From assembly GCA_902786855.1 (NCBI GenBank), contig CADAEH010000003.1:113915-177914 (forward strand): 64,000 nt of DNA, written 5' to 3'. This DNA comes from an uncultured Eubacteriales bacterium. Lineage in GTDB: Bacteria; Bacillota; Clostridia; Peptostreptococcales; Anaerovoracaceae. Below, in pieces: positions 30,602 to 56,184 of the stretch (position 1 is its first letter; each line of letters starts with the position of its first letter). The notes below the pieces were generated by a model, which saw only the letters and a list, made by a program, of their open reading frames with translations, had not been told where the DNA came from and searched no databases. Position numbers and translations under genes: made by a program.

Positions 30602-33600
30602 CTATCCAATCTTTTCAAGTTCTTTTCGTAATGCGTGAAGCTGCTGACTGGTCATTATTTCTCCATAATGCGTCCCATTATAAGTCGGATGAAGAACAGG
30701 GTACTGCCCTTTTGTTTGGAGAATGAAATTCTTTTTGATCAGCCATTCAATAATATACTTGATGTCTGCTCGATCTATATCTGATAGTTTTCCATAACCA
30801 TCGATTATATCCAAGTTTCCAGAGATGATCCTATTGTCCTTTGATTCTCGTAAAACATTGATCAGGACTGTTACTCCGTAATATTTCTTTTTACTAATAT
30901 CTGACAGAGTCTGAAGTATGGTCACGAGTATCTTATTGAGATCTTTTCCTCTATACAACACCGGCTTGATATCAGGTGCAGTTATGCGTACTCTCTGATA
31001 ATCATTGTTTGATGGTTCCTTTCTTTCATCGGATATTGTTCTCTCGCCAGTTTTCTGTGGTTCTTTAGGTTTATTATCTAATCCTTTAGGTATTATTATT
31101 GGTTCCGCAGGAGTATCGTCTTTAATATTCATATACTCATAGAAGTACTTTGGACCCATCATGCGCGAACAGCCGGTTCCATCTCTCTTGTAGTTGGTAC
31201 ATCCGAGCATAAATTGTGATTTTTCTTTTCCCGGCTTGACTATAAGGTATCCATCCCTGCACTGATCACATTTTATAATGGATAGCTTCCCTGCTTCATA
31301 CTTATTAGTCATAAAACCGCAGACTTCAGGTTCATTTGTACATATAAACAATTTTAACCCATATGCAGATTTATAGCGATACTGCAAAGGATATCCGCAC
31401 ATCGGGCAGGTCTTTTTATATGACGGGATGGCTGTAATGTCCTCGTTCCAGTCACCTTTTAAAACAACACTTTTGTAATCATGCTTGAGTTCGAGCAGGA
31501 ACTCGGAAGGATTCTGTTCTGGTGCAATGAAAAACACTCTGTTTTTAGTCCTTGTCATTGCTACATAGAACAGTCTTCTCTCTTCAGCATATTCGATCGA
31601 ACGGTCTTCTTTTATGACCAGGGACAGTACAGGATCATCCTCAATTTTTGCCGGAAAACCATATATTTCATTCCTTCCATTGACTATGATCACATTGTCA
31701 TAGCCAAGACCTTTTGAAGAGTGGGCTGTCAGGAATGTAATATTAAGCTGGGGGTATTTTACTGATCTCAGCCTTTTGCCCCTTGATGTATATTCGAACA
31801 AACCGCTTTTTTCCAGCCTGTCTCCATCAAACCCAAATCGCCCTATAAGAAGTATTGATGAATTAGCTGGTTTTTGCTCTGCTTTATTATATTCTATTAT
31901 CTGTTCTAATGCAGTTTCGACAGCATGTGCGATAGCATAGTTTGCTCCGCTGCGGTTGTCTCCATTCCGGTCTTTTCGTTTACTGTCGTATGTGTAAATG
32001 ATCACAGGATCTTCGATATGCTTACGAGCTATGAGGTCCTTTTGTATTTGTTCCTGATTCTTCTGTATAAATGCCCCTGCAATATCGATCACTTCTTGCG
32101 AATTGCGGTATGTCCTTACGATTTTGAGCAGCTTGGCATAGCCCATTTTCTCTGCGAATTTTGTAAAAAGTGTGATATCAGATCCGCTGAATGCATATAT
32201 GGACTGCCAGTCATCACCGACTGCTATTATCTTCGCGTCAGTTACCTTGTGAAGTGAAGTAACAAGATCGAATCTCTGCCTTGAAATGTCCTGATACTCA
32301 TCAACTATTACATATTTGAAATCGAGTTTCTGCTTCATGTCCTCGATCTCTCTGAGGATCCTATCAGACTCATTGATCATATCCTCGAAATCAACAGCAT
32401 TGTTTTCTTTCAGGAATCTCTCATACTCGAGATAGCAGTCCCGACATATATTCAGGAACAGCCTGGTACGCACGTTTTGTGTTGAATGATACATGCGATC
32501 AAAATCATCTGCTGTATATCCGTTGACTTTGAAGTTTGAAATAAATCTCATAACCAGAGACACCAGCTTCCGTATGTACCGGTTTTCTTCGGAAGTGATA
32601 AGTTTCTTCATTATCTCCTCCTTGGATCTCGGCCTGAGCTCAAATCCAGCCTTTATTAATTCTTCTTTCAGATGTTCCAGAAGCGGTCGACGGTCGTTAT
32701 ATGCAGAGTATGTATATATTAAATCGGTTCCATGTCTTCTATGCTGCCTGATCTTGTCATTGATAGCACGCTTATATGCGTTGAGTTCATCTTGAGAAAA
32801 GCGATCATTACGACCGTCCTCAGTAATACCAAAATGCTCCAGATATGATTCTTTGCCATCTTGTCTGATTAGAAAATCCGGAGTATATGGTTTGCGGGCA
32901 AATTGGATATCGTACCTATATAAAGGCTCGTAATCATAATCGATACCGTTAAGATACAGGAAATTGGCTATCTCTACTTCTTGAGCTGACCGCATTACCT
33001 CACTCTGAATGGTGACAGACTTGCGCGTCCTTATATCGATGACTTCCCTTTTGAAATCATCAAGCTCACTTCGTATGGTTGAGTAATTGGCCTTTGCCAG
33101 ATGATTAAAGAAATCATTGAGGTCCTTACCCTCAAACGGGGCATCAAAATACGAAGCAAAAAAGAGAATCAGATTATTAACAGTGCTTTCATTCTTTAGG
33201 ATGGTTTCACGAAAATAGTCCTGCAGAACTGTATAAAGCTTACCCTGATCGACTATGTTCAGTTTTTCAGGATTTTGCTTCCGTAGAATGGCATTGCCGG
33301 TAGAATGGAAGGTAGCAATAGGACAATCAATATGCAGATCGCCGGCAATACGCTGCTTTAGCTCATTGACTGCTTTGTTGGTATAGGATATGACCAAGAT
33401 CTGTCTGGGATCTATCCCTTGCTTGTCAACAAGATACTTGACCTTAGCTGCAACGGTAGTCGTTTTCCCTGCACCCGCACCTGCAATGACCAGACAATAG
33501 TCTTCATCAGTCAGAATAGCACGGCGCTGATCTTCATCAAGCTTGATTTCCGGATCACTCGCCTTCAGGATGTTATCGAGATAGTCTTTTTCCGATACCA

Positions 33601-33934
33601 TCTTGGATCTGATGAATTGCTCATTCTGCGAATCGATCAATGTCTGAAATGATTCACGTCTATTGAGAATAGCAGATATCCTATCCGCTGATGCCCCATT
33701 GCTGCGGCAGAACACATCAAAAGTACCGCTGTCCTTAAGCACCTTGAACCAAGCCAAAAGATCATCATACTTTGACAGAGCCTCACTATATTCACTTCTG
33801 GCAACATAATGATCAGCAGAAAGCAAGCTGCTCATCAGTGCATCAAGCTCAAATATTCTTTCCAGCTCAATAGAAACAGGCCTACTCGCCTGCTTCTTTT
33901 GTTTATTCCCAAATAATCGCTGCAAGAAACCCAT
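30602..33934 (-). CDS. UvrD-like helicase with PD-(D/E)xK insertion, zinc ribbons and RQC-like C-terminus
   Basis: This is an 1110-residue SF1A helicase. Motifs in order: IAGAGAGKTTTVAAK (Walker A, near residue 150), VISYTNKAVNELKQR, VDEYQDISRQRF (DEYQD, near 550), VGDDWQSIYAFSGSD, FLTAHSSKGLGYDNVI and RLFYVAMTRTKNRVF (motif VI). An insertion near 320-400 reads YTPDFLIRQDGKESYLEHFG, a nuclease-like PD...E pattern. After the motor lie two Cys4-type ribbons (CPMCGYPL and CDQCRDGY with partner Cys), then a winged-helix/RQC-like end. It likely unwinds and perhaps cuts foreign DNA. It leads the group ending in the HNH and PD-(D/E)xK genes. Confidence 0.85.
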   Translation of the reverse strand: MGFLQRLFGNKQKKQASRPVSIELERIFELDALMSSLLSADHYVARSEYSEALSKYDDLLAWFKVLKDSGTFDVFCRSNGASADRISAILNRRESFQTLIDSQNEQFIRSKMVSEKDYLDNILKASDPEIKLDEDQRRAILTDEDYCLVIAGAGAGKTTTVAAKVKYLVDKQGIDPRQILVISYTNKAVNELKQRIAGDLHIDCPIATFHSTGNAILRKQNPEKLNIVDQGKLYTVLQDYFRETILKNESTVNNLILFFASYFDAPFEGKDLNDFFNHLAKANYSTIRSELDDFKREVIDIRTRKSVTIQSEVMRSAQEVEIANFLYLNGIDYDYEPLYRYDIQFARKPYTPDFLIRQDGKESYLEHFGITEDGRNDRFSQDELNAYKRAINDKIRQHRRHGTDLIYTYSAYNDRRPLLEHLKEELIKAGFELRPRSKEEIMKKLITSEENRYIRKLVSLVMRFISNFKVNGYTADDFDRMYHSTQNVRTRLFLNICRDCYLEYERFLKENNAVDFEDMINESDRILREIEDMKQKLDFKYVIVDEYQDISRQRFDLVTSLHKVTDAKIIAVGDDWQSIYAFSGSDITLFTKFAEKMGYAKLLKIVRTYRNSQEVIDIAGAFIQKNQEQIQKDLIARKHIEDPVIIYTYDSKRKDRNGDNRSGANYAIAHAVETALEQIIEYNKAEQKPANSSILLIGRFGFDGDRLEKSGLFEYTSRGKRLRSVKYPQLNITFLTAHSSKGLGYDNVIIVNGRNEIYGFPAKIEDDPVLSLVIKEDRSIEYAEERRLFYVAMTRTKNRVFFIAPEQNPSEFLLELKHDYKSVVLKGDWNEDITAIPSYKKTCPMCGYPLQYRYKSAYGLKLFICTNEPEVCGFMTNKYEAGKLSIIKCDQCRDGYLIVKPGKEKSQFMLGCTNYKRDGTGCSRMMGPKYFYEYMNIKDDTPAEPIIIPKGLDNKPKEPQKTGERTISDERKEPSNNDYQRVRITAPDIKPVLYRGKDLNKILVTILQTLSDISKKKYYGVTVLINVLRESKDNRIISGNLDIIDGYGKLSDIDRADIKYIIEWLIKKNFILQTKGQYPVLHPTYNGTHYGEIMTSQQLHALRKELEKIG

Positions 33935-34006: not shown

Positions 34007-37000
34007 TTAAACTGCCATTGTTTTATTTGCACTTGGGAACATTCCTGATGGTATTGGGGAATGTAGCCTCCAATCAAAGCTTACAGGCATTTCTCCTTCG
34101 TGTCTCACATAGTCTGCGTTTCCTAAGAACACATATGGAGAAGTATAGGCCCCATTTTTCTTATATTCCCTAACAAATAATGAAACTAAATTGCCAGTTT
34201 CCTGTTGTTTGATATATCTCTGTATTTTAGGACTGCCTTGCTTGTCGCCGCTCTGGCTCTGCCAGTGGAACAATGTAGGCGTTACTGCATAATCATCATA
34301 CATTGTGGACGGAGAAAAATCTTTTTCTGATTTATTCAAATTAATCAGAAATATGTCAGTTTTTCTATCCTCAAAGTACTTAACACCCTCGCGGAACTCA
34401 GGTGAGGCAGTCTCATTGAAATATCCAAATGCCGCCATTATTTGGTTTGTGTTATAACTGCAATGTAGCTCCAGAGGGCATGAATAATCATATTCATTCT
34501 TCACAGAAATGAAATCAACTCTACTCCTGTTATATCTAAGAACCTCGAGCATTTCTTCTCTTACGAATTCTTCTTCCAAAACAGACTTTATACCATCGTC
34601 TATATTGCTGAACCCCATCCGCTCAGGATGCTTTTTGAAAAAAGTATAATACAGCATATTCCTCATGAGACGATCTGTGTCTGTAGTAACATTGCGCTTC
34701 TCTTCTATATAGTCAATCCAGAAATCAAGGAGCTTCAATGAGTTGATGTGGAACAGCCCGTTGAATTTTTTGTATACATCATCACTAACATCATACTCGG
34801 TATCAATTAGATTTGCCCATTTCTTTAACCGATATAATGATCTTTCACCATTGTACTTATAGAATTCATATAGGTTTAGATTGTATTCATCGAGGAAATT
34901 TGCTAATGTCAGCATTTTACCTGTATCTTCCTCGAACGTCCTGATATTAGCGGTCAGAGTCTTCTTATCATTATTTGTTTGTTTTAGATTCTCAAGGATG
35001 TATTCTTTTGCAACTCTCTCAAACTCGATATAGCATCCTCTTGGAAGGTTTGAAAATCCGTCTTCAACCTGTTTTCGTAATGACTTTCTACCTTTACCCA
35101 CAATCGCTTCATATTTAAGATCGAACTTATACTTCTTATTGGAACGACCGACAAAGTCAAGGACGGTTAGGCATTCTTTCCCTTCTGAGAGACGCAGGCC
35201 ACGACCTAATTGCTGTAGGAAAACTGTTGCACTTTCCGTAGGTCTAAGAAAGAGCACGGTATTCACCTCCGGTATGTCAACTCCCTCATTATACAGATCG
35301 ACTACAAAGATGAATTTGATTTCTCCCTTCACAAGCTGCCTTTTAGCATCATCGCGAATTGCGTCAACACTTTTTGCAGATAATGCGAGTGATGGGATCC
35401 CATGTCTATTAAAATAGTCAGCCATGTAGTTAGCATGCTTTACACTGATGCAAAACCCCAAACCTTTAACAGCATCGATGTCTGTTACATATTCTCTAAC
35501 CTTGCTGAGGATGAGATTACATCGTATATCATCGGATGTATATACATTCTCAAGCTGGTTAACATCATATCGTCCATTTATCCAATTGATCTTTTGATAG
35601 TCGACTTCATCTGTTATTCCAAAATATTGGAATGGGCTAAGTAAGTTTCTATTAATCGCATCCCCCAATAACATTTGAGATGCGATATGGCCATCAAAAT
35701 ACTTGAGTATATCCTTTCCATCCATTCGGTCTGGTGTTGCAGTAAGGCCCAAAAGTATTTTCGGCTTATAATACTCTAAAAGCTTCTGATAAGATTTTGC
35801 TGCAGCATGGTGAAACTCATCTACAACAATATAATCATAATAATCATAGGTTGTTCTGTTTTTCTCTAAAAGCCCAGATGAGTTGAGTGACTGAATACTT
35901 ATAAAAAGATGTTGGATATCATTAGGACGTCTGCCATCAACATAAAGCTCACCAAAATTAAAATCATTGAGTACTTCTCTGAATTTCTCAATGCTCTGTT
36001 CAAGTATTTCTTTTCGATGTGCTACAAAAAGCAGCCTCGCGCTTTCATTATCTTTTTTGAATCTCTTATAGTCGAACGCAGCTATAATTGTCTTCCCGAC
36101 ACCAGTCGCGCCGACGACCAGATTTTTATATCTGCCAAATAGTTCTCTCTCAGCAGCAAGATGGTCAAGTATCTCCTGCTGGTATACATACGGTCTGAAA
36201 GATAGATGCAAGTTCCTATTATTGCTCTTACTTTCTTTTGGATATGACAGCTCATACTGAAGCTTCTGTCTGCATTCTTCATCGGTCGGATCGAATGTTT
36301 CAAAGGTATCATCATTCCAGTATGTCTCAAAAGAGACTTGAAATTTCTTTACAATATCAAACGATTCTTTTTCAGTAACTTTAATATTCCATTCAAGACC
36401 ACCAGTTAGTGCAGGGTTGGAAAGATTGGAAGAGCCTATGTATGCCGTTGAGAAGCCTGTCTTTCGATTAAACAAATACGACTTTGCATGCATGCGCGCA
36501 TGATTTGTCTCATAGTTTACTTTTATTTCAGTGTTTGGAAGTTGTGACAACTCAAGAACAGCTTTATAGTCTGTTGCTTTTGTATATGTGGTGGTGATAA
36601 TCCTAAGTCTGCTGCCAGGTCTTGAAGTAAATTCCTGAAGTTCCTTAAACATTGGACGAATTGCGCTCCACTTTATGAATGCCACCAGCAGATCAACAGA
36701 ATCAGATGTCAGTATTTCCTTTTTCAATTCAGACATCATGCTGGGCTCATTAGGCGATCCGGTAAAAAGTGCATTTTCTGTAATAGAAGTCTCAGGACGT
36801 AAGTTTCCTTGGTGCTTGATGCTTCTTGCCGAATTAAGCTTATTGTATAGAGCAGTAAGGATTTCTCCTTTTTCAAGGATTTTATTATCTACAAAGTCTG
36901 TTTCTTCAGTGTGTATAGCAATTTCCTCAATAATGTCATTGCATAGCTTGATCTGAGCAACTAGTGCTTCTTGATCATGATTACTGCTAAAACTTTCTCG

Positions 37001-37174
37001 TATATAGCGCAATCCCTGCTGGATAACAGAAGATATATAAATAGAAAGAGCACGCCTCGCATCATCAGCTTTGAGTGACTCTTTGAAAATATCATAGTCT
37101 TCCTGGTCAAGCTCAGAAAGAGCTGCATCCACCTTATTATTTATAATCTGTTCATAAATACCATCATTTAGCAT
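34007..37174 (-). CDS. PLD-nuclease/DEAD-box helicase fusion with DUF3427 C-terminus
   Basis: This 1055-residue protein has four parts. Residues 1-150 are helical. Residues 150-330 are a PLD-type domain (MHAKSYLF as HxK, then IGSSNLSNPAL). Residues 360-760 are an SF2 helicase: VVGATGVGKTIIA, VVDEFHHAA (DEFH), LGLTATPDR, and VFLQQLGRGLRL as motif VI. The rest matches DUF3427 (ELHCSYNTNQIMAAFGYF; TPTLFHWQSQS). The domain order is known in a widespread family often found in defence islands. I prefer the start at 37174, seven bases after the GTPase stop; a longer frame would overlap that gene by 50 bases. Probably DNA translocation coupled to PLD cleavage. Confidence 0.88.
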   Translation of the reverse strand: MLNDGIYEQIINNKVDAALSELDQEDYDIFKESLKADDARRALSIYISSVIQQGLRYIRESFSSNHDQEALVAQIKLCNDIIEEIAIHTEETDFVDNKILEKGEILTALYNKLNSARSIKHQGNLRPETSITENALFTGSPNEPSMMSELKKEILTSDSVDLLVAFIKWSAIRPMFKELQEFTSRPGSRLRIITTTYTKATDYKAVLELSQLPNTEIKVNYETNHARMHAKSYLFNRKTGFSTAYIGSSNLSNPALTGGLEWNIKVTEKESFDIVKKFQVSFETYWNDDTFETFDPTDEECRQKLQYELSYPKESKSNNRNLHLSFRPYVYQQEILDHLAAERELFGRYKNLVVGATGVGKTIIAAFDYKRFKKDNESARLLFVAHRKEILEQSIEKFREVLNDFNFGELYVDGRRPNDIQHLFISIQSLNSSGLLEKNRTTYDYYDYIVVDEFHHAAAKSYQKLLEYYKPKILLGLTATPDRMDGKDILKYFDGHIASQMLLGDAINRNLLSPFQYFGITDEVDYQKINWINGRYDVNQLENVYTSDDIRCNLILSKVREYVTDIDAVKGLGFCISVKHANYMADYFNRHGIPSLALSAKSVDAIRDDAKRQLVKGEIKFIFVVDLYNEGVDIPEVNTVLFLRPTESATVFLQQLGRGLRLSEGKECLTVLDFVGRSNKKYKFDLKYEAIVGKGRKSLRKQVEDGFSNLPRGCYIEFERVAKEYILENLKQTNNDKKTLTANIRTFEEDTGKMLTLANFLDEYNLNLYEFYKYNGERSLYRLKKWANLIDTEYDVSDDVYKKFNGLFHINSLKLLDFWIDYIEEKRNVTTDTDRLMRNMLYYTFFKKHPERMGFSNIDDGIKSVLEEEFVREEMLEVLRYNRSRVDFISVKNEYDYSCPLELHCSYNTNQIMAAFGYFNETASPEFREGVKYFEDRKTDIFLINLNKSEKDFSPSTMYDDYAVTPTLFHWQSQSGDKQGSPKIQRYIKQQETGNLVSLFVREYKKNGAYTSPYVFLGNADYVRHEGEMPVSFDWRLHSPIPSGMFPSANKTMAV

Positions 37175-37181
37175 AGTAACT

Positions 37182-38438
37182 CTATTTTTTCTTCTGCTTA
37201 TTTTTATTGTCTTTGGTGAAAGATTTAGCAAGGGCTGCCAGTACCTTACCTATCGATTCCAGCTCTACTTTTCCATTACTGTCAATAGATAATTTTTTCA
37301 ATGCATCTACAATGCCTGGCAGGTAATCCTCAAACAAGTTCGTTATTTCTGCGTCCCAATCTACCGTTGTCAGTTCAATCTCTTTGTTGTAGACCTTCTG
37401 GAACAAAACATTACTGACTTCGCCCGCACCGAGTGTGATCGCACCTGCTACTGCAGCATTTAATACTGTGGCTGCCACATTTATCCCGGGGATCGCTTTA
37501 ATTGCATTTAACAGATTCCGACCTGCCATAGTTGTAGTCCCGACTTTGAGGATCGTATTAATGATCTCATTCGATGCATCATCCTGTATGCCATATATTT
37601 TTGCAACGCCAGTAAGCATGCTTGTCTGGATAGGAACAAGTATAGTTGCATCCGGAATCGGTAATGGAATAGCGCCAACAACTGTTGCACCTGTTGCAGC
37701 ACTGGCAATCAATGTATTTGCCATTGAATTCTTTATTTTGAGATCAATTTCTTTGATTGCTGTTTTACTTATTGCCCTTGCCTCAGGCACTAATTCTACA
37801 GTCCTGTTTATTAAAACATCCAGCCCCATCGGAGGAACAGTGACTGTATTATCTATTTTGTATTCCATTGCTACTACAGGAATGATATCTTTTACATTCA
37901 GCGGTCTCCTGTGATTTGTATTGTATTTATCGATCGCTGCCTTAGCCATGTTGATATTCTCAGAGATCTCCACCCGCGAATATGACTTCGTAAATACAAC
38001 AATGACCGGAACATTTTTCCAGCTGTTAGTTACACTTTTTATATATCCAAGAACTTCCTGATCGATCCTCTTAGTCGTCCCATCGATGCAGAACCAGATC
38101 ATATGAATGAGCTTCTCAACATTGCTGGTTCTGACACCTTCCATACTGAATTTTGCTATATCCCTCTTTATACGGTTTTGTTTGAAAATACCGTACTCAA
38201 ATCCAACGGTATCGATCATACGGAAAGGCAGCACCTGATTTTGATAAATAGCTATTTCTTTCGTTACTGCTTCCCCTATACCGGTCGGAGCCTTGTTTGC
38301 TTCTAAAATCGCATTGATAAGCGTGGATTTGCCGCACCCTGATGTACCAAGAATCAGCACATTTATCTTGTCGTCATTCATCGCTATTATCTGCTCATAT
38401 TGTGGAATCCATTTTTTCGGTTTTTTAATGACGGCCAT
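37182..38438 (-). CDS. DUF697-type GTPase
   Basis: The 418-residue protein has a G-domain: NVLILGTSGCGKSTLINAIL (P-loop, near residue 30), FRMIDTVGFE (G3 DxxG) and VIVVFTKSYSR (G4-like, with TKS in place of NKxD). The second half carries hydrophobic helices (ASAATGATVVGAIPLPIPDA, then IKAIPGINVAATVLNAAVAG), as in DUF697 proteins, and likely meets the membrane. A lysine-rich tail ends the protein. GGAGGTGC upstream supports the start. It is seven bases upstream of the PLD-helicase gene, so the two probably form one unit; GTPases of this shape occur in immunity and membrane remodelling. Confidence 0.8.
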   Translation of the reverse strand: MAVIKKPKKWIPQYEQIIAMNDDKINVLILGTSGCGKSTLINAILEANKAPTGIGEAVTKEIAIYQNQVLPFRMIDTVGFEYGIFKQNRIKRDIAKFSMEGVRTSNVEKLIHMIWFCIDGTTKRIDQEVLGYIKSVTNSWKNVPVIVVFTKSYSRVEISENINMAKAAIDKYNTNHRRPLNVKDIIPVVAMEYKIDNTVTVPPMGLDVLINRTVELVPEARAISKTAIKEIDLKIKNSMANTLIASAATGATVVGAIPLPIPDATILVPIQTSMLTGVAKIYGIQDDASNEIINTILKVGTTTMAGRNLLNAIKAIPGINVAATVLNAAVAGAITLGAGEVSNVLFQKVYNKEIELTTVDWDAEITNLFEDYLPGIVDALKKLSIDSNGKVELESIGKVLAALAKSFTKDNKNKQKKK

Positions 38439-38951: not shown

Positions 38952-39737
38952 CTAATTCTTTTTTGTTACTCCCCTCATCCTGCTTAATATCAACAGGAAC
39001 CATGTGCATATTTCTTCATTAAGTTCATATGGACCCGCCCAATGTGTAAGGTATCTCCAATATGAAAAAACTGCTGATCCAAGAAGATCCACATCATCTA
39101 TCTCATTGATTACTGATTGCAGTTTAGTGTTATGGACATCAAAGCAGCCGGGATATTGTCTTTCAAATTCAGCTCCACCATCCATCTGAAACCCTAACTC
39201 ATTACAGTCTTCGCCAAAGTAGAAGTCAAAATCCTTATCATTTCCGGTTGAGAAAAAATGGATCCATTTTTCTGTGAAAAGGAATATAGCCTTCTTTCCT
39301 TCGTAATCCGGAGCCATTTTGCTGTCGAAGCCCCAAAGACTATATACCGGAATGTATCTTCTTAGGAGTTTAGTCACCGGAACTGGTGTATTATCGTATA
39401 TAGTTCCGATCTCATTTCCTATCAACGGTCCTGAAAAATTACTTCTTTTGTCTCCTTCTCTAATAATTAAGTCCCAGAATCCGCAATCTGTTACATCATA
39501 GTCAGGATAAACGTTCCTCATGATGTTAATAAGAAACTGTGCTTTCCACTTGCCAATATTCATCTGCTTTTTCCTGCAGAATCCTTTTTCCGCAACATAT
39601 TGCTCATAATTTCTCGCAGAGAACCACACCCTTCCGGAAGAAGATACTGTCAGATGTTGTTCAACTTCATCAGACTTATCCGGCATAGGTCCATAGCAAA
39701 TATTGTTGCTGATCAATTTAAAGCTTGTTGTTCCCAT
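38952..39737 (-). CDS. Hypothetical third gene of the PLD operon
   Basis: I do not recognise a family. The 261-residue protein begins with GTTSFKLISNNICYGPMPDK, then has alternating strands and aromatic-rich turns (VWFSARNYEQYV; RYIPVYSLWGFDSKM; KWIHFFSTGNDKDFDFYFG). There is no signal peptide, membrane span or clear catalytic motif. Its ATG overlaps the TAA of the 931-residue PLD gene by one base (TAATG), so it is translationally coupled and probably part of the same machine. The 3' end abuts a DUF2075 remnant. Confidence 0.7.
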   Translation of the reverse strand: MGTTSFKLISNNICYGPMPDKSDEVEQHLTVSSSGRVWFSARNYEQYVAEKGFCRKKQMNIGKWKAQFLINIMRNVYPDYDVTDCGFWDLIIREGDKRSNFSGPLIGNEIGTIYDNTPVPVTKLLRRYIPVYSLWGFDSKMAPDYEGKKAIFLFTEKWIHFFSTGNDKDFDFYFGEDCNELGFQMDGGAEFERQYPGCFDVHNTKLQSVINEIDDVDLLGSAVFSYWRYLTHWAGPYELNEEICTWFLLILSRMRGVTKKN

Positions 39738-42532
39738 TATTTTTTAATAAATTTCCAAAGCAATCCTTTTCCGACTTTTTTTGTTGTGCCATCAGGTAGC
39801 GACAATTCAATTTTATCATCCGCAACTGACAATACTCTGCAAGTTCCCCACTTTACGTGGTTTATAGTATCACCTGCCTGTAAACCCAATTCTAATATTG
39901 GCGCTTCCTGAGTTTTCTTTTTGGGACTTCCATAGAATGATTTTATTCCAGTATCATATGGTTCCTTGTCCCCGGATTTTCTCGTAATAGTTCTCTGTAT
40001 ATATGAATTACCAATGTCTTTTTCAATCAAAATAGATTTGATGGGGTCGCCTTTTGTACCCATGCCTATATTGCTGACATCAACAATAATAGAATCAACT
40101 TCTGCATGATAATTAATACAGTAATTTTCAATTTCCCGGATCAGCCAGTCATTCTCACCCAACCATGATATAGCACTGTCGCTTTGCCCAATAACATAAT
40201 ACTTCTTTTTTGTAATTCCTATAAGTGCTGTCTTTCCAAGGTTTTTATGAATCAGAGTTTCCAATTGCCCTTTAGTCTTGTACCCGATTGAGTCCTCGAC
40301 ATATCTGATAACCTCTTTAACTGTAGGCCTTATTCCGGAAATACTATCACTTAAGTTTTTCTTTACTATAAATACTTCCAGAGCTTCACCAATAGAATCC
40401 ACTGTTTCATCAGTTATATAGCGATTCAAGGATTCTCTGATAGAGAATCTTTTGTTTAAAGCTTTTATTGAATCTGCTATATATGGCTCAAACTCATCTA
40501 AATTTTTACACAGTCTATATTCGAGATAATGATTTACTATATAGAATTCCAGCAGTGTTCTGGCCTGCTCCTCTGTTATTTCATCATTTTTATCAGCTAC
40601 TGCGAGCATAAGGAGATTCCTTGCAGTAATTGCATAATAAAGGTCAAACAGCCCGCTTGTTCTCCCCTCTGGGATGTAGCTAAATGCGTAGCATACAAAA
40701 GCAATGGCCTTTATGTATTCTTCTGTTGAAGCAATTTCAATATACTTCTCGTTCAAGACATCATTAACGGTCGATTTTATAAATCTAATGATCCTCTTCT
40801 CCCCTTCATTATCAAGGGGTTTCTTTTGACTATCATCCTGCCTGTTTTTGTTTCCTATCTCGGTCTCATCTTCAGTATTATTCTTTGGAGTACTATTTCT
40901 GCCTCCGGACGATAGCAGTCTTTTAAGGAAACTCAAGCTTAGCGATCCGGCTGTTTTATAGTTCTCGAATTCCTGTCTTTCCTCCGAGGTAGGTATTCTT
41001 GGCGGTATCACATATTCTATGATCCCCTCCGGTGCTTCTTCAGAGTCCTCCTTGTCGACTTCTGCTTTTTTGTTTTGTCCGAATAAGGCTGAGAGCTCCT
41101 CTCTTCTTTGGTGTTCACTTACACAAAGGGCAAGATATTTTCTGAGTGAGATCAAATTCTCATAGAATTCATTATATTGGGGATATTCATATACTTTGAG
41201 TGTTCGGCTGGGACTATCTGCGTTTCTGCTTAGCTCAATTTCTGTTTTATTCTGTATCCAGCATATGATTTCATATTTGCATTCACCATCTTCAAGGATA
41301 AGAGTCAATAAATCACTGACATGTGATAAATCTGCTGCTTTTAACATACAGACAATATGTCGTTCTCCCGGGTAGTACTTTAACGCTACTTCTGACTCTT
41401 CACACCTCACAATAAGGCCCTTGGGATCACTCAGGCAGCCTATTACAAGACTGATATTTCCATCCTCATCTATCTGTCCATACTTATAGTGATATTTCCC
41501 TTCACTTGTGAATCCAGTTATATCCAGCAGATCGCATTCAACATCGACCCCGTTCTCTACTATTATGTTGTCAAAAAAATAATCAAATTCTTTAGTTTTT
41601 CCTTTCTCCAGAATGTTGCATTCTACGTTCCCGCCTTCATTAGGGGTTTTCACCAAAGCAGCCAGAGTACAGTTTGCACTGCCATATAGAACCCAGGAAT
41701 CCTTTGATGATTTGAATCTGATTACTTTACCGTGATAAAAGTATCTGGATTTTGGATTTTTAAATCCATCAAACGCCTTCACAGCAAGTCTATTAATTTC
41801 AGCGGATTTTCTTGTGTTGAACCGGCTTTTATGGTTCTGTATATAAACATTTAATGAGGCTTTGGGGAAACGTTCTCGCATTATGCTCAAAGCACTAAGA
41901 TCATTGTCATAAAAAGGTACAGCGATATCCACAGACTTTACATCACTCATAAGCTGTGCCGCCTGCTCCAGGATACCAGTATCCATATTATGTATAAAAA
42001 CTGCTTCTGCCAAACCGGTCTGATTGGTCTGACTCAGATAAGGAATGCTTTGAACCTCGCGCATTAATTCGTTATCAAGTCCATATGACATTTCATATGA
42101 TTTCATAAGAAAACTTACTGCAGCCTGGATCAACGGAAGAAATTGAGAATCATCGCTGGTGACTTCAAAAGCATTAAAAATCTCATTATTCGTTATATAA
42201 CCACTATACGTGCAGTTAGCACTTGAAATAATCAGTTTGGCCCTATCCTGCGCCAGAAGAAGTATCATCTTGGGATGATACGCGCCTGCTATACTTACAG
42301 GATTGACTGAATATTTCTTTCCAAGCAGAACAGCAGGTTTTCTTATTTCTGCTATACCCTTATTCAGCTCCTTTGCATCAACGATAAGAGCGATTTTTCT
42401 TACTCCATTACTGTAAAGCCTGTTAATTATAAAGCGCTCGAAAAATTCCACATCGATATTAAATGTGGTAATAAGAGCTATTTCATACCCCGTACTCTTT
42501 TCTATTTCCTCAAGTGCTTTATAGTTATCCAT
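39737..42532 (-). CDS. Large PLD-superfamily protein with PcrA-like Tudor C-terminus
   Basis: The 931-residue protein has two PLD half-sites. One is AYHPKMILLL then ISSANCTYSGY (residues about 85-110). The other is FYHGKVIRFK then LYGSANCTLAAL (about 270-295). Both are HxK...SxN patterns, so a full active site can form. A mixed region follows, then a charged linker (about 540-580), then helices. The last 50 residues read LQAGDTINHVKWGTCRVLSV, then LPDGTTKKV, like the Tudor-type end of PcrA helicases that binds RNA polymerase. It starts one base after the 498-residue gene's stop and overlaps the next gene. Likely a nuclease that acts at transcribing or replicating DNA; this is inference. Confidence 0.78.
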   Translation of the reverse strand: MDNYKALEEIEKSTGYEIALITTFNIDVEFFERFIINRLYSNGVRKIALIVDAKELNKGIAEIRKPAVLLGKKYSVNPVSIAGAYHPKMILLLAQDRAKLIISSANCTYSGYITNNEIFNAFEVTSDDSQFLPLIQAAVSFLMKSYEMSYGLDNELMREVQSIPYLSQTNQTGLAEAVFIHNMDTGILEQAAQLMSDVKSVDIAVPFYDNDLSALSIMRERFPKASLNVYIQNHKSRFNTRKSAEINRLAVKAFDGFKNPKSRYFYHGKVIRFKSSKDSWVLYGSANCTLAALVKTPNEGGNVECNILEKGKTKEFDYFFDNIIVENGVDVECDLLDITGFTSEGKYHYKYGQIDEDGNISLVIGCLSDPKGLIVRCEESEVALKYYPGERHIVCMLKAADLSHVSDLLTLILEDGECKYEIICWIQNKTEIELSRNADSPSRTLKVYEYPQYNEFYENLISLRKYLALCVSEHQRREELSALFGQNKKAEVDKEDSEEAPEGIIEYVIPPRIPTSEERQEFENYKTAGSLSLSFLKRLLSSGGRNSTPKNNTEDETEIGNKNRQDDSQKKPLDNEGEKRIIRFIKSTVNDVLNEKYIEIASTEEYIKAIAFVCYAFSYIPEGRTSGLFDLYYAITARNLLMLAVADKNDEITEEQARTLLEFYIVNHYLEYRLCKNLDEFEPYIADSIKALNKRFSIRESLNRYITDETVDSIGEALEVFIVKKNLSDSISGIRPTVKEVIRYVEDSIGYKTKGQLETLIHKNLGKTALIGITKKKYYVIGQSDSAISWLGENDWLIREIENYCINYHAEVDSIIVDVSNIGMGTKGDPIKSILIEKDIGNSYIQRTITRKSGDKEPYDTGIKSFYGSPKKKTQEAPILELGLQAGDTINHVKWGTCRVLSVADDKIELSLPDGTTKKVGKGLLWKFIKK

Positions 42533-42533
42533 T

Positions 42534-44030
42534 TCAGTCGGCTATTACATCAATGTCCTTCATTATTTGAAATAAATTGATCAGTCTTATCCCTTGAAAA
42601 TCTGTTGTGGGATACTTCCCTGTTCTTGCATACTTTTCGTCCACCTTTTCAAATATATATCCATCAAGGCTTCTTGATCTCAAGACCTTTTCAAGTGCAG
42701 TCACTTCATTCTGATACACGATCCACTCTCTCATGATAAACTGCAGTAAATCTATTATGGGGCGTGCTTTCCACTCATCAACCAATTCAATCAGCTTATT
42801 TACTGATACTTCACCTCCGATGCTTAGATGTCTAGTTTCGATATCCTTCCGGTCCTTAAATCTATTGTATACAGAAAGAATAATCCTGATTCCCGTATCG
42901 CAGTTTCTGCTTGTATCCCTTACACCTCGGTATCCCTGTTCTATCAGGTTTTCTCTTTCATCAAAATCGAAATTGCACGATGGAAGGAGCGACTCTATTG
43001 TCTGATCAAGATCCACATTTTCCCAACTTGAATCGCTAATGAGATCACCGACCAATTGATCCATCGTTTTGGGAACAACAAGGGAATCGACCATCGCTTT
43101 ACATATCATTTCAATTGCCGTAGTGAAGTATTGACGCCCCACCACGACTTCCCAAGCCTTCACTACATATTCCAAGGTATCAGGATAGTCATATTTATAT
43201 TTTCCTCTTGGAGAAAAATAGTCATATAACACTTTCCGAATTTCCTTTGCCCCTGGATTTTTAATCTGATAATCATGGTACAGAAATATCAGATAATCCT
43301 TCGATTCAATCAAGTACTTGTTATCCAGAAGTTCATTGAATCGTTCTTCAAACAATTCTCTTCTGAGAATCGCCTTACATTCATCAAATCCATTTAGATC
43401 GAGCCTTACAACAGACCCCAGTTCTTCGAGTATAGGCCTTGGTATTCCGGTATCTTTGAATCTGTATTTTTTATAGTATTCAGTCTTCTTTATGACTCTT
43501 TCGAAGGCCTCTCCCATTTCAGTTCCGAGCCCTTTCGTAAGTCTGTTCATCCCGGATATAGGGTTCCCTTCACTGTCTGTATCAGTTGTAAATCCAAGTG
43601 TTCTGCAGCCAGCGTTGTAATACTGCATTCCGCCGAGATATGAAACAAAATAATCTCGATTATACTTAAATAGCTCGGATTTGTTTAGTTTTAGGTCATT
43701 AGAAGTCTTTTCGATTCCAACAAGGTTTTTCGTATCCGGGCTATTATTAATCAGATTGCCCAATACAAAGTAATAGTCATTCTTTTTAACATAATCCTCA
43801 TTAAATCGTCTGCCGGCATTTTTGCCGAAATCCGTTTCTCCTGAATTCTGATAAAAGTCATAATAATTCCATATCAAAAAAATCCAGTAGAAAGCACGAT
43901 AAGTAACCGTGTTCACTACCGGACATAATTCGGCCTGCAATGTAGTCTGCGCTCCTGTTATTCCGAGATTGTCTCTGTTTGTAGTATTCGGAGTGTGGTC
44001 ATTTAATTTTGGACCCTTTTTATACATCAT
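42534..44030 (-). CDS. Hypothetical first gene of the PLD operon (DUF6361-like by eye)
   Basis: The 498-residue protein starts with LNDHTPNTTNRDNLGITGAQ and then PVVNTVTYRAFYWIFLIWNY. The DxLGI...NTxTxRxxYxxFxxW pattern resembles the opening of DUF6361-type proteins, but I could not check this. The remainder is mainly helical with many Tyr/Phe residues and no catalytic motif that I see. No strong ribosome site precedes the ATG at 44030. It lies one base from the PLD gene and is therefore the upstream member of a three-gene operon; its role may be sensing or target recognition, which is inference. Confidence 0.68.
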   Translation of the reverse strand: MMYKKGPKLNDHTPNTTNRDNLGITGAQTTLQAELCPVVNTVTYRAFYWIFLIWNYYDFYQNSGETDFGKNAGRRFNEDYVKKNDYYFVLGNLINNSPDTKNLVGIEKTSNDLKLNKSELFKYNRDYFVSYLGGMQYYNAGCRTLGFTTDTDSEGNPISGMNRLTKGLGTEMGEAFERVIKKTEYYKKYRFKDTGIPRPILEELGSVVRLDLNGFDECKAILRRELFEERFNELLDNKYLIESKDYLIFLYHDYQIKNPGAKEIRKVLYDYFSPRGKYKYDYPDTLEYVVKAWEVVVGRQYFTTAIEMICKAMVDSLVVPKTMDQLVGDLISDSSWENVDLDQTIESLLPSCNFDFDERENLIEQGYRGVRDTSRNCDTGIRIILSVYNRFKDRKDIETRHLSIGGEVSVNKLIELVDEWKARPIIDLLQFIMREWIVYQNEVTALEKVLRSRSLDGYIFEKVDEKYARTGKYPTTDFQGIRLINLFQIMKDIDVIAD

Positions 44031-45333: not shown

Positions 45334-45619
45334 TGTCAACGTAAATGTCAACGAACGCAAAAACACTTTTTCATTTTTCAGGCAACCTTTTCCGTCCGAA
45401 ACACTTTTTTATCCTTTTTTATCCTTCGTTGACGTTTTTCGTTGACATCAGAATCAAAAACCCAGTAATTTCAATGCTTTCAGGCATTCCCAAATCTCAT
45501 TTTCATGTCAACGAAATTTCAACGAACCTTGTCAACGGAGCTGCAAAAATCAGAATGGGATGTCCTCGCCCATGGTCAGCTGCGAAAAATCACAGTTCGT
45601 TGACGCCCCTTCGTTGACA
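45334..45619. repeat. Iteron-like cluster of GTCAACGAA repeats
   Basis: Nine copies of GTCAACG or its complement lie in 286 bases: direct at 45334, 45346, 45506, 45518 (TTCAACGAA variant) and 45530; inverted at 45425, 45438, 45596 and 45610. Most come in pairs 12-14 bases apart, roughly one helical turn. The last two fall inside the end of the VapE gene. Apart from this cluster and the promoter side of the 45132 gene, the 45133-45549 gap shows no gene. A replication origin or operator of the mobile element is likely. Confidence 0.6.
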
Positions 45620-46890: not shown

Positions 46891-46895
46891 TCTGA

Positions 46896-51259: not shown

Positions 51260-52120
51260 ACTCGAAGAACCGGATCCTGCATAAATCTTGCTGTTCTATT
51301 GCATCAAATATGCTTTTACAATATATCTTTATCGAGTTGATCAATGTTTCTCTCCTTCCATTGATCATCACTTCACGCTGTAATTGCATTTGCATCTGTC
51401 TTTTTTCATCGCTTTCAAATGACTGCGGTTTCATAATAGACACTTCAAAATCAATTATCGGTCTAAATGGTTCCATAAGATCTGAGGCAAGGTTGAAATG
51501 ATTGAACATATTGTCGTGGTACAGCCCAAGCTGAGTAATATAACCATTTGCAACTATCTCTCTATTGAAGGCTGACAGAATAAGACTGTATCCGTAATTC
51601 AATGCTGCATTGATACTGTTAGCTTCTGTCCGGGTAAAACTCATTCCGAACAATGCGTTGAAATACACCTTTGCGGCATGACCTTCCCTGTTGGTCCTAT
51701 CTGCAGGCTGGATCTCGCCAGCATAATGCCACAGGAGTTCCGCTTCACTTTTCCCCAATACTCAAGATGCCTTGCTTGATTGCGTATTTTTTCAGTCACG
51801 ATCTCAGTCCAGATCATGGTCTTTATCTGCTCTGACCAGGCTATCTGCTCTCTGATTTTAGCACTCGTATCATGTGAGCCGTAATACGGAATCAGTTCCG
51901 ATGAGGGATTCCTCTTTTCATCACAAAAGATTACTTTGATCTTCTTTTTCGTTAGTTCCGATATCAGCGCAGCAGTAATGGAAACTGATGTCGTTTCTAT
52001 TATCAATACGGATATCTCATCCAAATGAACCCTGACTGTTTCCGCTTGACGTACCACAATATGACCAAGCTGATAGTCCAGCTTTGCGCTATTGGAAATC
52101 ACTACAGTACGCCATCCCAT
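51249..52120 (-). pseudogene. cas1: cas1 split by a -1 frameshift at a G_GGA_AAA heptamer
   Basis: The first frame (from 52120) reads GWRTVVISNSAKLDYQLG to LEYWGK and then runs into unrelated sequence ending at 51641. The second frame continues from GKSEAELLWHYAGEIQPADR to the end with the catalytic NREGHAAKVYFNALFG (Glu) and LYHDNMFNHFNLASDLMEP (His, Asp). The joint is at 51749-51756, GGGGAAAA on the minus strand. A -1 shift there restores about 290 residues, the usual Cas1 length. Either a one-base indel has inactivated the integrase, or the site directs programmed -1 frameshifting, or the assembly is wrong. The ATG overlaps the cas9 stop (TGATG). I cannot decide between these from one sequence. 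Confidence 0.85.
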
Positions 52121-55100
52121 CAGACTGTCCTTAGATCAATAACCTGCTCTGTTATGCCAAGAACAGTCTTGTTGATAAGCAGACATTCAGTGCAATTAGA
52201 AATATTCTTTCCAGGTTTCATTGTTCCGGTGTGCTTCGACCCTCCTATTTTTTCTAAATTTGCCTGAGAATCTGCTCCAATCGAGCTAATCCTCAATATC
52301 TGCAGAAGAAGAGAACATTGATTATCTAAAGTCATGTCTCTAAACGTTTTTTCTCCCTTAATGAGCCTGTCTCCTATAGGGTTTGGTCTCCTTGAATATA
52401 TACCTTTGGTATGTTTTTCCTTCAATTGTTTATACAATTCGATATTATCCTCGGTATTGATTTCACTTGGCAAGCGACTGGTGTCTCGATATATCTCGAG
52501 TTTCCTGATATATTTGACCCACTTAAAGGTCATGCATAAATTCACAGCATTCCTGAAAACGAGTTGGTCACCTGTTTTCCCTGAAATGTGTACGTCGAAA
52601 CCATTCCACCGGATAAGTGACTGAAGAGGTATCCTTTCAACTCTTACAGAAAAGTCTACCAATCCCTGATTCGCCAGATAGTTTGTCAGATTTTCTGGAT
52701 CTTTCTTTATTCTTTCGGCAACATAGAGCGGAACAGCTTCAATGGTTCTTATACGTTTATTTCTGGAAGTATGCTCAACCAGACAGAAATAAGCAGTAGA
52801 AACATTGCTGAATCCACCATATTTTGTTGCTTCGGCTAATTTCGTATCAGTAGATGTCTTGAGAGGTATATATCCATATCCCGCTGCCTTTTTCTTACTG
52901 TAAAGAGTCTGATCCGCAAGACCTCCGTGTCCGGTAAACGACTGTCTTGTCATCAATGGAGTGTTTCTTGCCATTATCCTCCTGACAGTCTCTATCGTTC
53001 CGGGAGCACCACCCTTTCTCGATGCGATCCATGCGGTTTTCCCATTTCTTTTCACATCGAAGTCAAACATTCTGTTGAGATTGTATTCCCTGTTTTCATC
53101 ACTCTTACCATATTCATTCCTAATATAGTTCCTAGGATCTTGGGTGAACTTGGTATAGTAAACATTTCCAACCACTATATTGAGGTAGGCATCATTCGCA
53201 TGGTGAAAATCATTAGCGATCCTGGATTTTGGCAAGTCATACCTATGGCGAAACTCAGCAACATTCGAAGCCTTTGAGTACACGATTTCTGTATCAGGAA
53301 GCACCTGCTTTAAGAGGTCTGCAACACCCTTCGTTCCCTGTCCTGTTTCAACCAGTTGCCTTGCGATAAAATCTGCTTTCTGATCATCAGTGAGTTCCTT
53401 GTTTCCTGTCAACCTGCGGTATTTTTCCTCGGTGATAAGACCTTTTTCTTTCAGATATCTCCAAAGTGCTGTCACTTCCGGATCATTGCGGATAGACCTT
53501 TCGAGTGGATAGTTATCACTCTTTTCTGCATTATCCGGCTTGTTGATCAGCACAAGATTATTATGGATACTGTCATCCTTTACAAAATGCCTAGGATATA
53601 TGTGATCTATATCATACAGGTTGTCATCGAACAGGCTCTCAATATCGATAGGTTTGCCCGTATACATGTCACGCCCCATCTGGGTAATGTACAGATACAT
53701 CTTCTTACTGCGAAGCCTGCCACTCTGGTCTTCGTTTTCTATAAGGTCTTTCCAGTTTCTGGACTCATCTTTGATATTCTTGTACAACTTAAGAAGCTGC
53801 TTCTTTCGTGAGTCTTTTCTCCCTTTATTGCCTTTTTCCTCGTCGGTCCTTGTCATTTCAATGAACAGCCTCTTTGGCCCGCATCCCATGACTTTTTCTG
53901 CTTCATGGATGATCTTTACTGTCTGATTGATCATCTTTTTGACCGGCGCTGAGAAATAGAATTCATCCAGCGCTTCTGGTGTAATATCTGACAGAGCAGA
54001 TAATGCTTGTGATTGCTTCTCCGCAAGAGCATCTTTATATGTGAACAGATCGTTGCTGAGGAGCTCTATAAGATTGTAATTGGTCTCCCATAATGCTGTG
54101 ATCAGTGGCCTGATCTCGCCTGTTCCCTTTTCTATTCCAGGCAATTGGAGAAACTCTCTGGACAATCTTCCCCAATCCTTGAACCTAATCCTGACTATTC
54201 TGTTTAGCTGATCATCCGTCAGACAGTCATATTTCATCGAAAGCTGTTCTTTTACGAGCTTCTGTGAGTCACCGTAAATAGTGCATAGATAAATGATGTC
54301 TTCGACCATTGCTTCGCCGGCATCGGTATCTATGACATTTCCCAATATCGATTTGAGTTTCCCGTACGACGCAAGGCTGTTATTGATCTGTATATCTATT
54401 CCGGAGATCTGCTCTTTCTCATCAGCCAGGCCTCTCGTTCTCAGATATTCAAACAGAGCATTTCTGGTAACCTTCTTCCCTGTTCTGAAGAGTGTGTTGA
54501 AGATGTCCTGCTTCATCTCAAGAGATAGTCTTTCTCCATTCACTCGTATATTATTGATCTCATTAAGTACACAATAACGCTCATACAAAAGAGAAGACTT
54601 TGGCAGTACCTTTTCTCCACTTATATAAGTACAGTTGCGTACGAGTTCGGATATAAACCTGCTGCGCGTCTCGTTCATATCTATCTTCTCTTCTATGTTC
54701 CAAGGAAGTACCGGTCCTTCATCCTTCCTTACCACCCATCCGTTGCCTCCGTATTTCCTGCTGTTCTCCGTAACAGGTCCAACATAATAAGGAATCTGAA
54801 ATGAGAACAGCCTCATGATTCTTTCAGCAACGGTAAGTCCGCTTTCATCGACTCCGTTCAGGAACGGAAGATATCCTGAAGCATTCCCAAGTATTACTTT
54901 AAGTTCTCTTGCATGTACCTGATTCGGGATCACTCCATTCGATGACGTGAGCTGCTTCGGCATGAACGTTTCATTTTCGATTTCATAAAGGATGTACTTT
55001 TTGTCTTTGCATTCAGGATAATTACTAATCTGTTTTTTTACATAATCATAGAAGTCTGCTTTTTTACGGGATTTGAAATCTCTGCGGCGGACTTTACCTG

Positions 55101-56184
55101 AATTGTATGAATTGACATAAGCACTGTATGATCCAGGAACTTCACTTCGGAACATATTGTCATACTGATTATCGTCACCATATTTTTTTATAAGTTTCTT
55201 CAGTAAGCTCAGATCTTTTTTGTGTTTCTCATAGGCTCCTACTCTTGCGAAAGAAAGATAATCATATCCTCCCAGAATCCCTGAAAGAATACCAGCGTCA
55301 TACATGTCTTTCATCGCTGAAATAAGCTGATATCTATCATCTCCGACAGCTTTGATGACTTTCTCCTCTTTATCATCTTCATAGTCCGCAAAGCTGAATG
55401 TGACTTTCTCTATAAGTTCGATGTCTGTGAATATCTTAGATACATCAGCGGTACGACCACTTATAGCTTTGCAACATTCAGCCTTTACCTTTTCACTTTT
55501 TTCTATTCCAAGAAGTCTCTCTAATTCCTCGCATTTTTTCGTCTTCGAAAGGCTTCTGTTGCTAAAAACTCCGCTAAGAGATTCCTGATCCTCATCAGGG
55601 AAATGGACTCCGATTAGTTCTTCCGCAAGCGAGATGAAATTCTGATAAGCATCCGTAAACCGGATCGTTCCCCCTTCATCACTGAGACTGGAATTAAGAA
55701 AATGACCGCGATGCTTGAACATATTGGATACTGCAAGATATACCAATCTGACGTCATATGGCACATGGGCATTCTCTATCAACTCTTTGCGCAAATGAAA
55801 CACTGTAGGGTATTGCTGATAATATTCCTTATCGGTATATCCTTCATCATTGAAAACACCATTTGGAGTGCTCACATCCGGATCCTTATCTTCAAGATAA
55901 TACTTGCTGTTATCAAGACGCTGGAAGAAATACGGATCGACCGTTTCTACAGCTTCAGCAAAATAACTCCTCACCAAGTTCTGTCTTACTTGCTCACGCT
56001 GTCTCCGTCTTCGACTGACTCTGAACGACCTCCGTTGTTCAGCTGTATCAGCTTCATCAAATTCACGAACTCCCCACAGATCCTTTCCTTTCTTCCGTAT
56101 GAGATTGTATTCCGTATCTGTAATAGCCCATCCTATTGAGCTAGTTCCCATATCCAATCCGAGATAGTATTCTTCATTACTCAT
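52120..56184 (-). CDS. cas9: CRISPR RNA-guided endonuclease Cas9 (type II-A)
   Basis: The 1354-residue protein has the RuvC-I motif YYLGLDMGTSSIGWAITD (Asp11) and the arginine-rich bridge helix QRRSFRVSRRRRQREQVRQ. RuvC-II is the LFIEMTRTDEEK region. The HNH domain has DIDHIYPRHFVKDDSIHNN (Asp-His, later Asn) near 875, and RuvC-III is FHHANDAYLNIVVGNVYY near 1020. A C-terminal PAM-interacting region follows. The length fits type II-A. It cuts DNA complementary to crRNA paired with tracrRNA. AGGAG supports the start. Downstream are cas1, cas2 and csn2 with short overlaps; the tracrRNA is divergent and starts about 70 bases upstream. Confidence 0.97.
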   Translation of the reverse strand: MSNEEYYLGLDMGTSSIGWAITDTEYNLIRKKGKDLWGVREFDEADTAEQRRSFRVSRRRRQREQVRQNLVRSYFAEAVETVDPYFFQRLDNSKYYLEDKDPDVSTPNGVFNDEGYTDKEYYQQYPTVFHLRKELIENAHVPYDVRLVYLAVSNMFKHRGHFLNSSLSDEGGTIRFTDAYQNFISLAEELIGVHFPDEDQESLSGVFSNRSLSKTKKCEELERLLGIEKSEKVKAECCKAISGRTADVSKIFTDIELIEKVTFSFADYEDDKEEKVIKAVGDDRYQLISAMKDMYDAGILSGILGGYDYLSFARVGAYEKHKKDLSLLKKLIKKYGDDNQYDNMFRSEVPGSYSAYVNSYNSGKVRRRDFKSRKKADFYDYVKKQISNYPECKDKKYILYEIENETFMPKQLTSSNGVIPNQVHARELKVILGNASGYLPFLNGVDESGLTVAERIMRLFSFQIPYYVGPVTENSRKYGGNGWVVRKDEGPVLPWNIEEKIDMNETRSRFISELVRNCTYISGEKVLPKSSLLYERYCVLNEINNIRVNGERLSLEMKQDIFNTLFRTGKKVTRNALFEYLRTRGLADEKEQISGIDIQINNSLASYGKLKSILGNVIDTDAGEAMVEDIIYLCTIYGDSQKLVKEQLSMKYDCLTDDQLNRIVRIRFKDWGRLSREFLQLPGIEKGTGEIRPLITALWETNYNLIELLSNDLFTYKDALAEKQSQALSALSDITPEALDEFYFSAPVKKMINQTVKIIHEAEKVMGCGPKRLFIEMTRTDEEKGNKGRKDSRKKQLLKLYKNIKDESRNWKDLIENEDQSGRLRSKKMYLYITQMGRDMYTGKPIDIESLFDDNLYDIDHIYPRHFVKDDSIHNNLVLINKPDNAEKSDNYPLERSIRNDPEVTALWRYLKEKGLITEEKYRRLTGNKELTDDQKADFIARQLVETGQGTKGVADLLKQVLPDTEIVYSKASNVAEFRHRYDLPKSRIANDFHHANDAYLNIVVGNVYYTKFTQDPRNYIRNEYGKSDENREYNLNRMFDFDVKRNGKTAWIASRKGGAPGTIETVRRIMARNTPLMTRQSFTGHGGLADQTLYSKKKAAGYGYIPLKTSTDTKLAEATKYGGFSNVSTAYFCLVEHTSRNKRIRTIEAVPLYVAERIKKDPENLTNYLANQGLVDFSVRVERIPLQSLIRWNGFDVHISGKTGDQLVFRNAVNLCMTFKWVKYIRKLEIYRDTSRLPSEINTEDNIELYKQLKEKHTKGIYSRRPNPIGDRLIKGEKTFRDMTLDNQCSLLLQILRISSIGADSQANLEKIGGSKHTGTMKPGKNISNCTECLLINKTVLGITEQVIDLRTV

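Follow-up and report, generated by a model that had tools for sequence, protein, structure and literature searches.

A conserved two-gene unit with a phospholipase D superfamily nuclease, probably an undescribed defence system distantly related to ZacABC

The closest described relative of the locus studied here is ZacABC, which in PADLOC-DB 2.0.0 consists of a DUF6361 protein (ZacA), a phospholipase D (PLD) protein (ZacB) and a helicase (ZacC). DISARM, whose DrmC is a PLD nuclease too, the PADLOC candidate PDC-M27, with its helicase M27C, and restriction enzymes of the SauUSI/NgoAVII type, which have a PLD catalytic core, are further systems for comparison. We analysed a window of 64,000 nucleotides (positions 113,915 to 177,914 of contig CADAEH010000003.1, assembly GCA_902786855.1) from an uncultured Eubacteriales bacterium, in which three minus-strand genes, here called A, B and C, form an operon that a preliminary description had presented as a possibly undescribed defence complex of three proteins. 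The conserved unit proved to consist of the two genes A and B, and this pair probably represents a two-part defence system that has not been described before.

Gene A (42534..44030, minus strand) encodes 498 residues, B (39737..42532, minus strand) 931 and C (38952..39737, minus strand) 261. Coordinates of the open reading frames (ORFs) and the junction sequences agreed with the arrangement described before: base 42533 alone separates the end of A from the start codon of B, and the stop of B and the start of C have one base in common (TAATG). Sixty-five further loci were fetched with the B alignment alone (56 on genome contigs and 9 on viral contigs, with B called in 63 of them), and because they were picked by B alone the linkage of A to B was not built in. 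In 64 of the 65 loci B was immediately preceded by an A homologue, 60 times as an ORF neighbour recognised by the A profile and four times by tblastn, which found A whole or in part (L076, L087, L088, and L092). The sole locus without A upstream, L045, has a B that is short at its start. For 42 of the 60 ORF pairs the overlap of A and B measured 4 bases. Searches by tblastn with B also gave 27 plasmid records, and in each of the 12 that were opened the PLD gene comes directly after a gene or ORF that codes for about 490-600 residues; the plasmid tblastn with A alone gave no match. L090 and L091 are nearly identical to L089 and were left out of several counts.

Hosts of the genome loci include Pseudomonadota, Bacteroidota, Balneolota, Acidobacteriota, Myxococcales, Planctomycetaceae, Parcubacteria, and Clostridia, and those of the plasmid loci include Streptomyces and Halobaculum. 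The pair was rare near the window: the A profile matched two among 394 genomes from the order, and the B profile 8 of 398 genomes of the phylum including the own genome, with the A-B pair in none of the other seven (ZacABC in G774, an M27-like PLD gene plus helicase in G786, and other PLD-containing or unrelated genes without A match in the remaining five). In the sister genome G036 (loci L046/L021) A is 88% and B 84% identical, a type I hsdR stands immediately before the pair, and the gene after B encodes an ACT domain. In the next-closest relative, L047 (Clostridia; A 45% and B 35% identical), the downstream protein was read by eye as having GmrSD/DUF262-type regions. A phage origin was considered and rejected, as B was unmatched in 50,697 phage records, A was unmatched in viral contigs (single-protein query) and PHROGs gave nothing convincing. 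The nine viral-contig loci were matched by the B profile, and C had one match in viral contigs.

The preliminary description had recognised two PLD half-sites in B, and both were confirmed (H86-P-K88...S104-A-N106 and H267-G-K269...G284-S-A-N287). The first (H86-x-K88...N106...E117; 42182..42277, minus strand) and the second (H267-x-K269...G284-S-x-N287...N302-x-E304; 41621..41734, minus strand) were invariant in an alignment of 54 B proteins, that is, the window and 53 of the 65 loci with B of at least 700 residues, shorter or duplicate ones being left out; H86, K88, N106, E117, H267, K269, G284, S285, N287, N302, and E304 were the same in 54 of 54. The order of the motifs (H-x-K, then N after 18 residues and E after 11 more, a second H-x-K, GSxN, NxE) is closer to that of PLD nucleases such as BfiI and Tdp1 than to the HKD of lipases. 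Both half-sites lie in one chain, within a catalytic domain of residues 1-330 (41543..42532, minus strand), which was modelled with predicted local distance difference test (pLDDT) values mostly of 80-97 per 10-residue block over residues 11-330. It is followed by a beta-rich domain (residues 345-430), a poorly modelled helical region of low confidence (446-880) and a C-terminal small barrel, the mean pLDDT of the whole model being 65.0. Pfam PLDc_2 matched B at 1.1e-7 and Tyr-DNA_phospho at 9e-5, just below cut-off. PADLOC matches were weak (PDC-M27B, 3.9e-10; ZacB, 4.1e-8; DrmC, 9.9e-7). Foldseek placed Tdp1 best (2e-11; TMt about 0.5, identity 13-15%), and PLD3, F13, polyphosphate kinase, SauUSI, the NgoAVII R protein, NucT, and Nuc came lower; the sequence search of the PDB with B gave weak Tdp1 and SauUSI matches only, besides coiled-coil designs and a transcription factor. 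By its two HxK half-sites, the conserved N and E residues and the modelled PLD fold, B is a PLD superfamily nuclease, its cutting being predicted.

Gene A encodes a protein modelled as all-helical (AlphaFold, mean pLDDT 86.7, predicted template modelling score 0.87) and gave no Pfam, NCBIfam or PADLOC match at E 0.1. Residues ~16-115 distantly match DUF6361/ZacA; in the comparison of A with DUF6361 by hhalign the probability was 94.9 and E was 4e-8 over 89 N-terminal columns. The A proteins of plasmids, 11 of 12 of which were taken into an alignment with the A of the window (L032 was left out), have in common an N-terminal pattern around NVT-x-R-x-RYY, with variations. The A alignment of genome and viral loci covered 51 loci with A of 440-650 residues, without L056 and L068. 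Searches of the PDB with the sequences of A or C returned nothing useful.

The order of the genes, A and then the PLD gene, is common to the pair and ZacABC, and the PLD domain of B appears homologous to ZacB in profile comparison (99.3%, E 4e-20, 297 columns). The relation is distant. The A of the window was unmatched by the ZacA and DUF6361 models at E 0.1, its N-terminal relation being obtained by profile comparison only, and the match of B to the ZacB model had its best stretch over residues 267-323 only. Among five plasmid relatives, the ZacA model was matched by four of the five A proteins (2.5e-5 to 0.012) and the ZacB model by all five B proteins (4.4e-11 or better). In contrast with ZacABC, no helicase gene follows B, A has about 500 instead of 400 residues, and the B of the window is about 300 residues longer. 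The six DUF6361 loci that were opened (L027 and five of 45 plasmid records, L112-L116) all had the order DUF6361-PLD-helicase; L027, from a member of Bacillota, was matched by PADLOC as ZacA (2e-131), ZacB (5e-171), and ZacC (0), and its A is Pfam DUF6361. Taking together the profile relation of A to DUF6361 and of B to ZacB and the weak matches of the plasmid relatives, the pair of the window is, as far as sequence comparison can tell, a distant helicase-less variant of the ZacA-ZacB type. The earlier suggestion of a possibly undescribed system thus stood insofar as none of PADLOC 2.0.0, NCBIfam and Pfam gives a clear name for the set, and has to be limited insofar as the two proteins are distantly related to ZacA and ZacB.

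PDC-M27 differs in its helicase M27C, which was not found in the operon (A and C were unmatched), and the match of B to M27B covered B in part only. With respect to DISARM, DrmMI- and DrmD-like genes occurred among the flanks of A-B loci, but B is far larger than DrmC, has two half-sites and is paired with A, and none of A, B, and C was matched to DrmA or DrmB at E 0.1. Unlike SauUSI/NgoAVII-type enzymes, neither B nor the A-B-C operon had an ATPase or translocase by family scans. A literature search, which covered few subscription papers, found no paper on the A-B pair, and a term search of PMC9252829 gave no match.

On balance we favour the interpretation that the products of A and B make up a defence module of two proteins that lacks a helicase. 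The two proteins would form a complex in which the all-helical A either recognises target DNA or, until infection, keeps B inactive; B would then cut the invading DNA without need of a metal, as other PLD nucleases cut metal-independently. C and the C-terminal tail of B would be local additions, and where the pair stands inside type I restriction operons, as it does in several lineages, it may serve as an extra cutter. A more ambitious scenario, put forward here tentatively, would see in A-B a widespread, unnamed sister of ZacABC that works without a helicase, its helical A reading DNA and licensing a single-chain Tdp1-like nuclease, and that repeatedly entered type I operons, borrowing the translocation of HsdR or replacing a blocked HsdR.

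Together with the PLD nuclease in an operon, which the preliminary description had already recognised, a setting among defence genes was borne out. In the window itself, Cas9 and Csn2 and a type IV-like restriction enzyme are part of this setting. The flanks were scanned for same-strand proteins of 250-1500 residues (74 of 137 upstream and 60 of 144 downstream; L046 was left out). Among the PADLOC matches listed there were five type I methylases, four DrmMI, three specificity subunits and three SoFic upstream, where the Pfam matches listed agreed, and three REase_I and one each of QatA/B/C, GajA, AbiEii, Cas10_Id, DrmD, and DpdF downstream. HsdR was present in 10 of the 56 genome loci (0.95 Mb in all; E 1e-38 or better), nine being found by blastp and L088 added by a model. 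Four of the 10 positive loci, L046 (via its copy L021), L065, L081, and L093, contributed seeds to this model; L065, L081, and L093 had been found earlier with other seeds, and L046 is the L021 contig itself. About 0.2 HsdR would be expected, against the 10 seen, from the 97 HSDR_N matches in 149 Bacillota genomes of ~2.7 Mb each (an estimate), a control that is imperfect in using another phylum and another model. By the HsdR counts and the PADLOC matches of the flanks, A-B is enriched beside defence genes. Several points weigh against a defence module nevertheless. Besides the imperfect HsdR control, the flank counts have no matched control, many A-B loci are without a recognised defence neighbour, and the fold of A stays unplaced, with no Foldseek match at E ≤ 0.001; the rows Nt.BspD6I and MukF given for A by VIA-align are a hint and not a result, because VIA-align merely re-ranks the list of Foldseek.

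Individual neighbourhoods may be mentioned. In L029, EH-signature and SNF2 genes, which we take to be Zorya-like, stand beside A-B. In L067 and L080, A-B is preceded by SNF2 (DrmD-like) and large methylase (DrmMI-like) genes, from which one or two small genes separate it; judging from labels given by blastp seeds, motifs and pooled PADLOC counts, these loci are perhaps a DISARM variant with A-B in place of DrmA/B/C.

A different explanation is that A-B is a restriction accessory which depends on the DNA translocase of a neighbouring system, HsdR or some other helicase, and acts as its second nuclease, or as a back-up when phages block the main enzyme. HsdR abuts A-B on the same strand in the genome loci L046, L065, L075, L081, L093, and L096 and in L006 of Myroides, and HsdM-HsdS-like genes lie upstream of the pair in L083. 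These eight type-I-embedded cases belong to different classes and required seven changes on a quick tree, whose branches are partly weak and whose starred branches force only one change. The DUF6361 relatives, which had their own helicase in each of the six loci opened, also agree with a requirement for such an enzyme. Against it, 46 of the 56 genome loci had no HsdR at E 1e-38 or better, a count in which some stretches measure 3-5 kb only and weaker matches in L083 and L086 are not included. The genome of the window (87% complete) had no HSDR_N match, and the pair there is therefore independent of such a type I enzyme, unless this lies in the missing 13%. We regard the accessory role as rather unlikely.

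Poorer still are the prospects of a Tdp1-like action, in which B would act where proteins such as relaxases, terminal proteins or topoisomerases are covalently joined to DNA, and would block the initiation of plasmid or phage replication rather than cut DNA. Tdp1 is the closest fold, and the Pfam match to Tyr-DNA_phospho points in the same direction; however, the fold match covers the shared PLD core, at the low TMt and identity given above, and NucT, Nuc, and SauUSI match too, which makes this role improbable.

The three-protein complex of the preliminary description, in which a Tudor tail would direct B either to RNA polymerase or to the replication fork, depends on C and on the end of B. 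C gave no helicase or other Pfam, NCBIfam or PADLOC family match. Although it overlaps B by one base in the window, a C seed (blastp, 1e-6) matched no ORF in the 63 loci with called B; in seven of these the sequence has no ORF beyond B, and L088 and L092 fell outside the set. C was not found in L021 or L047, and tblastn over all plasmids gave one record and none of the 12 A-B loci. Homologues of C occurred in 4 of 197 relatives including the own genome: that of G015 is solitary and 66-67% identical, and of those in G049 and G413 one lies two genes behind HsdR and the other has its two halves in swapped order. A Butyrivibrio plasmid has one C half before the restriction endonuclease of a type I cluster. 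According to ORF lists or annotation, the C homologues of G015, G049, G413, the viral contig L011, and the Butyrivibrio plasmid do not adjoin A-B. As C occurs elsewhere alone, rearranged or near restriction genes, it seems to be an add-on sometimes found near such genes and not a fixed part of the pair, and a three-gene unit was rejected. The proteins of the C family with swapped halves are those of L011 (7989-9533, beside a GmrSD protein) and L108 (3917-5455), and the swapped order implies that the halves may be two movable domains. A 176-residue ORF in L107 matching the helical part of B (3e-4) was taken as chance.

The Tudor-like tail of B (residues 884-931; 39740..39883, minus strand) had been compared with the end of PcrA, and a tail of this kind was seen in two B proteins, that of the window and that of the sister genome (L046/L021). 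The last 48 residues of B scored 49 against the end of the host PcrA (shuffled mean 22.1, standard deviation 4.1; a score as high came up once in 5000 shuffles). A scan of the entire own genome with PF21196 gave pcrA first (21.3 bits) and the tail of B second (15.9 bits, E 0.04), both below the cut-off of 23.9 bits, and the best PDB match of the tail was the PcrA domain 5dma (E 0.1). The tail was modelled as a small barrel with strands at 889-892, 896-904, 907-911, and 917-921, and with pLDDT 75-88 in the blocks of 881-920. From sequence and model, the resemblance to the PcrA Tudor domain is probably real. Nevertheless, the tail was not found in L047, nor, on inspection by eye, in the further B ends that were compared, and recruitment by Tudor domain and RNA polymerase therefore cannot be general. 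The B tails of L006, L075, L080, and L093 looked barrel-like by eye, but their homology was rejected since, when scored against the tail of the window or PcrA, 32 to 1513 of 2000 shuffles were as high. With neither C nor the tail found conserved, the three-protein complex is very unlikely.

Equally doubtful is the idea of B as a lipid-acting phospholipase or toxin that A restrains and that causes abortive infection. Lipases do occur in the PLD superfamily, the order of A before B suits a restrainer-effector pair, and the fold matches include F13 and PLD3, but Tdp1 takes the best places among them.

If the two-protein module holds, it would represent a compact two-gene PLD defence system present in bacteria of several phyla and also in at least one archaeon, and barely reached, with weak matches, by the PADLOC 2.0.0 models tried. 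Its presence in type I operons of different classes would allow the sharing of a translocase between defence modules to be tested directly, and comparison with ZacABC would show the contribution of the helicase.

Other features of the window were recorded. A type IV-like restriction enzyme with PLD, helicase, and DUF3427 parts (34007..37231, minus strand; PADLOC mREase_IV, 2.8e-223) is directly preceded by a GTPase with a DUF697-like end (37182-38438), their called frames sharing 50 bases; the GTPase is possibly its partner. Upstream of gene A, past a 305-residue fn3-like protein, VapE-like and MobQ relaxase genes (45550-48482) suggest a mobile element in the island. Cas9 (52120..56184, minus strand) occurs with Csn2 (50268-50942); between them lie a Cas2-like ORF (50939-51259, named by eye) and an apparent cas1, also by eye, over two overlapping frames (51249-51758 and 51641-52120), which is either broken or an assembly error. 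A family scan identified a UvrD-type helicase with RQC domain (30602..33934, minus strand), of which a homologue with 57.6% identity was seen in L109 (9564-13121), a contig with hsdR and a C-like gene from another genome of the family, where the neighbours are thus similar.
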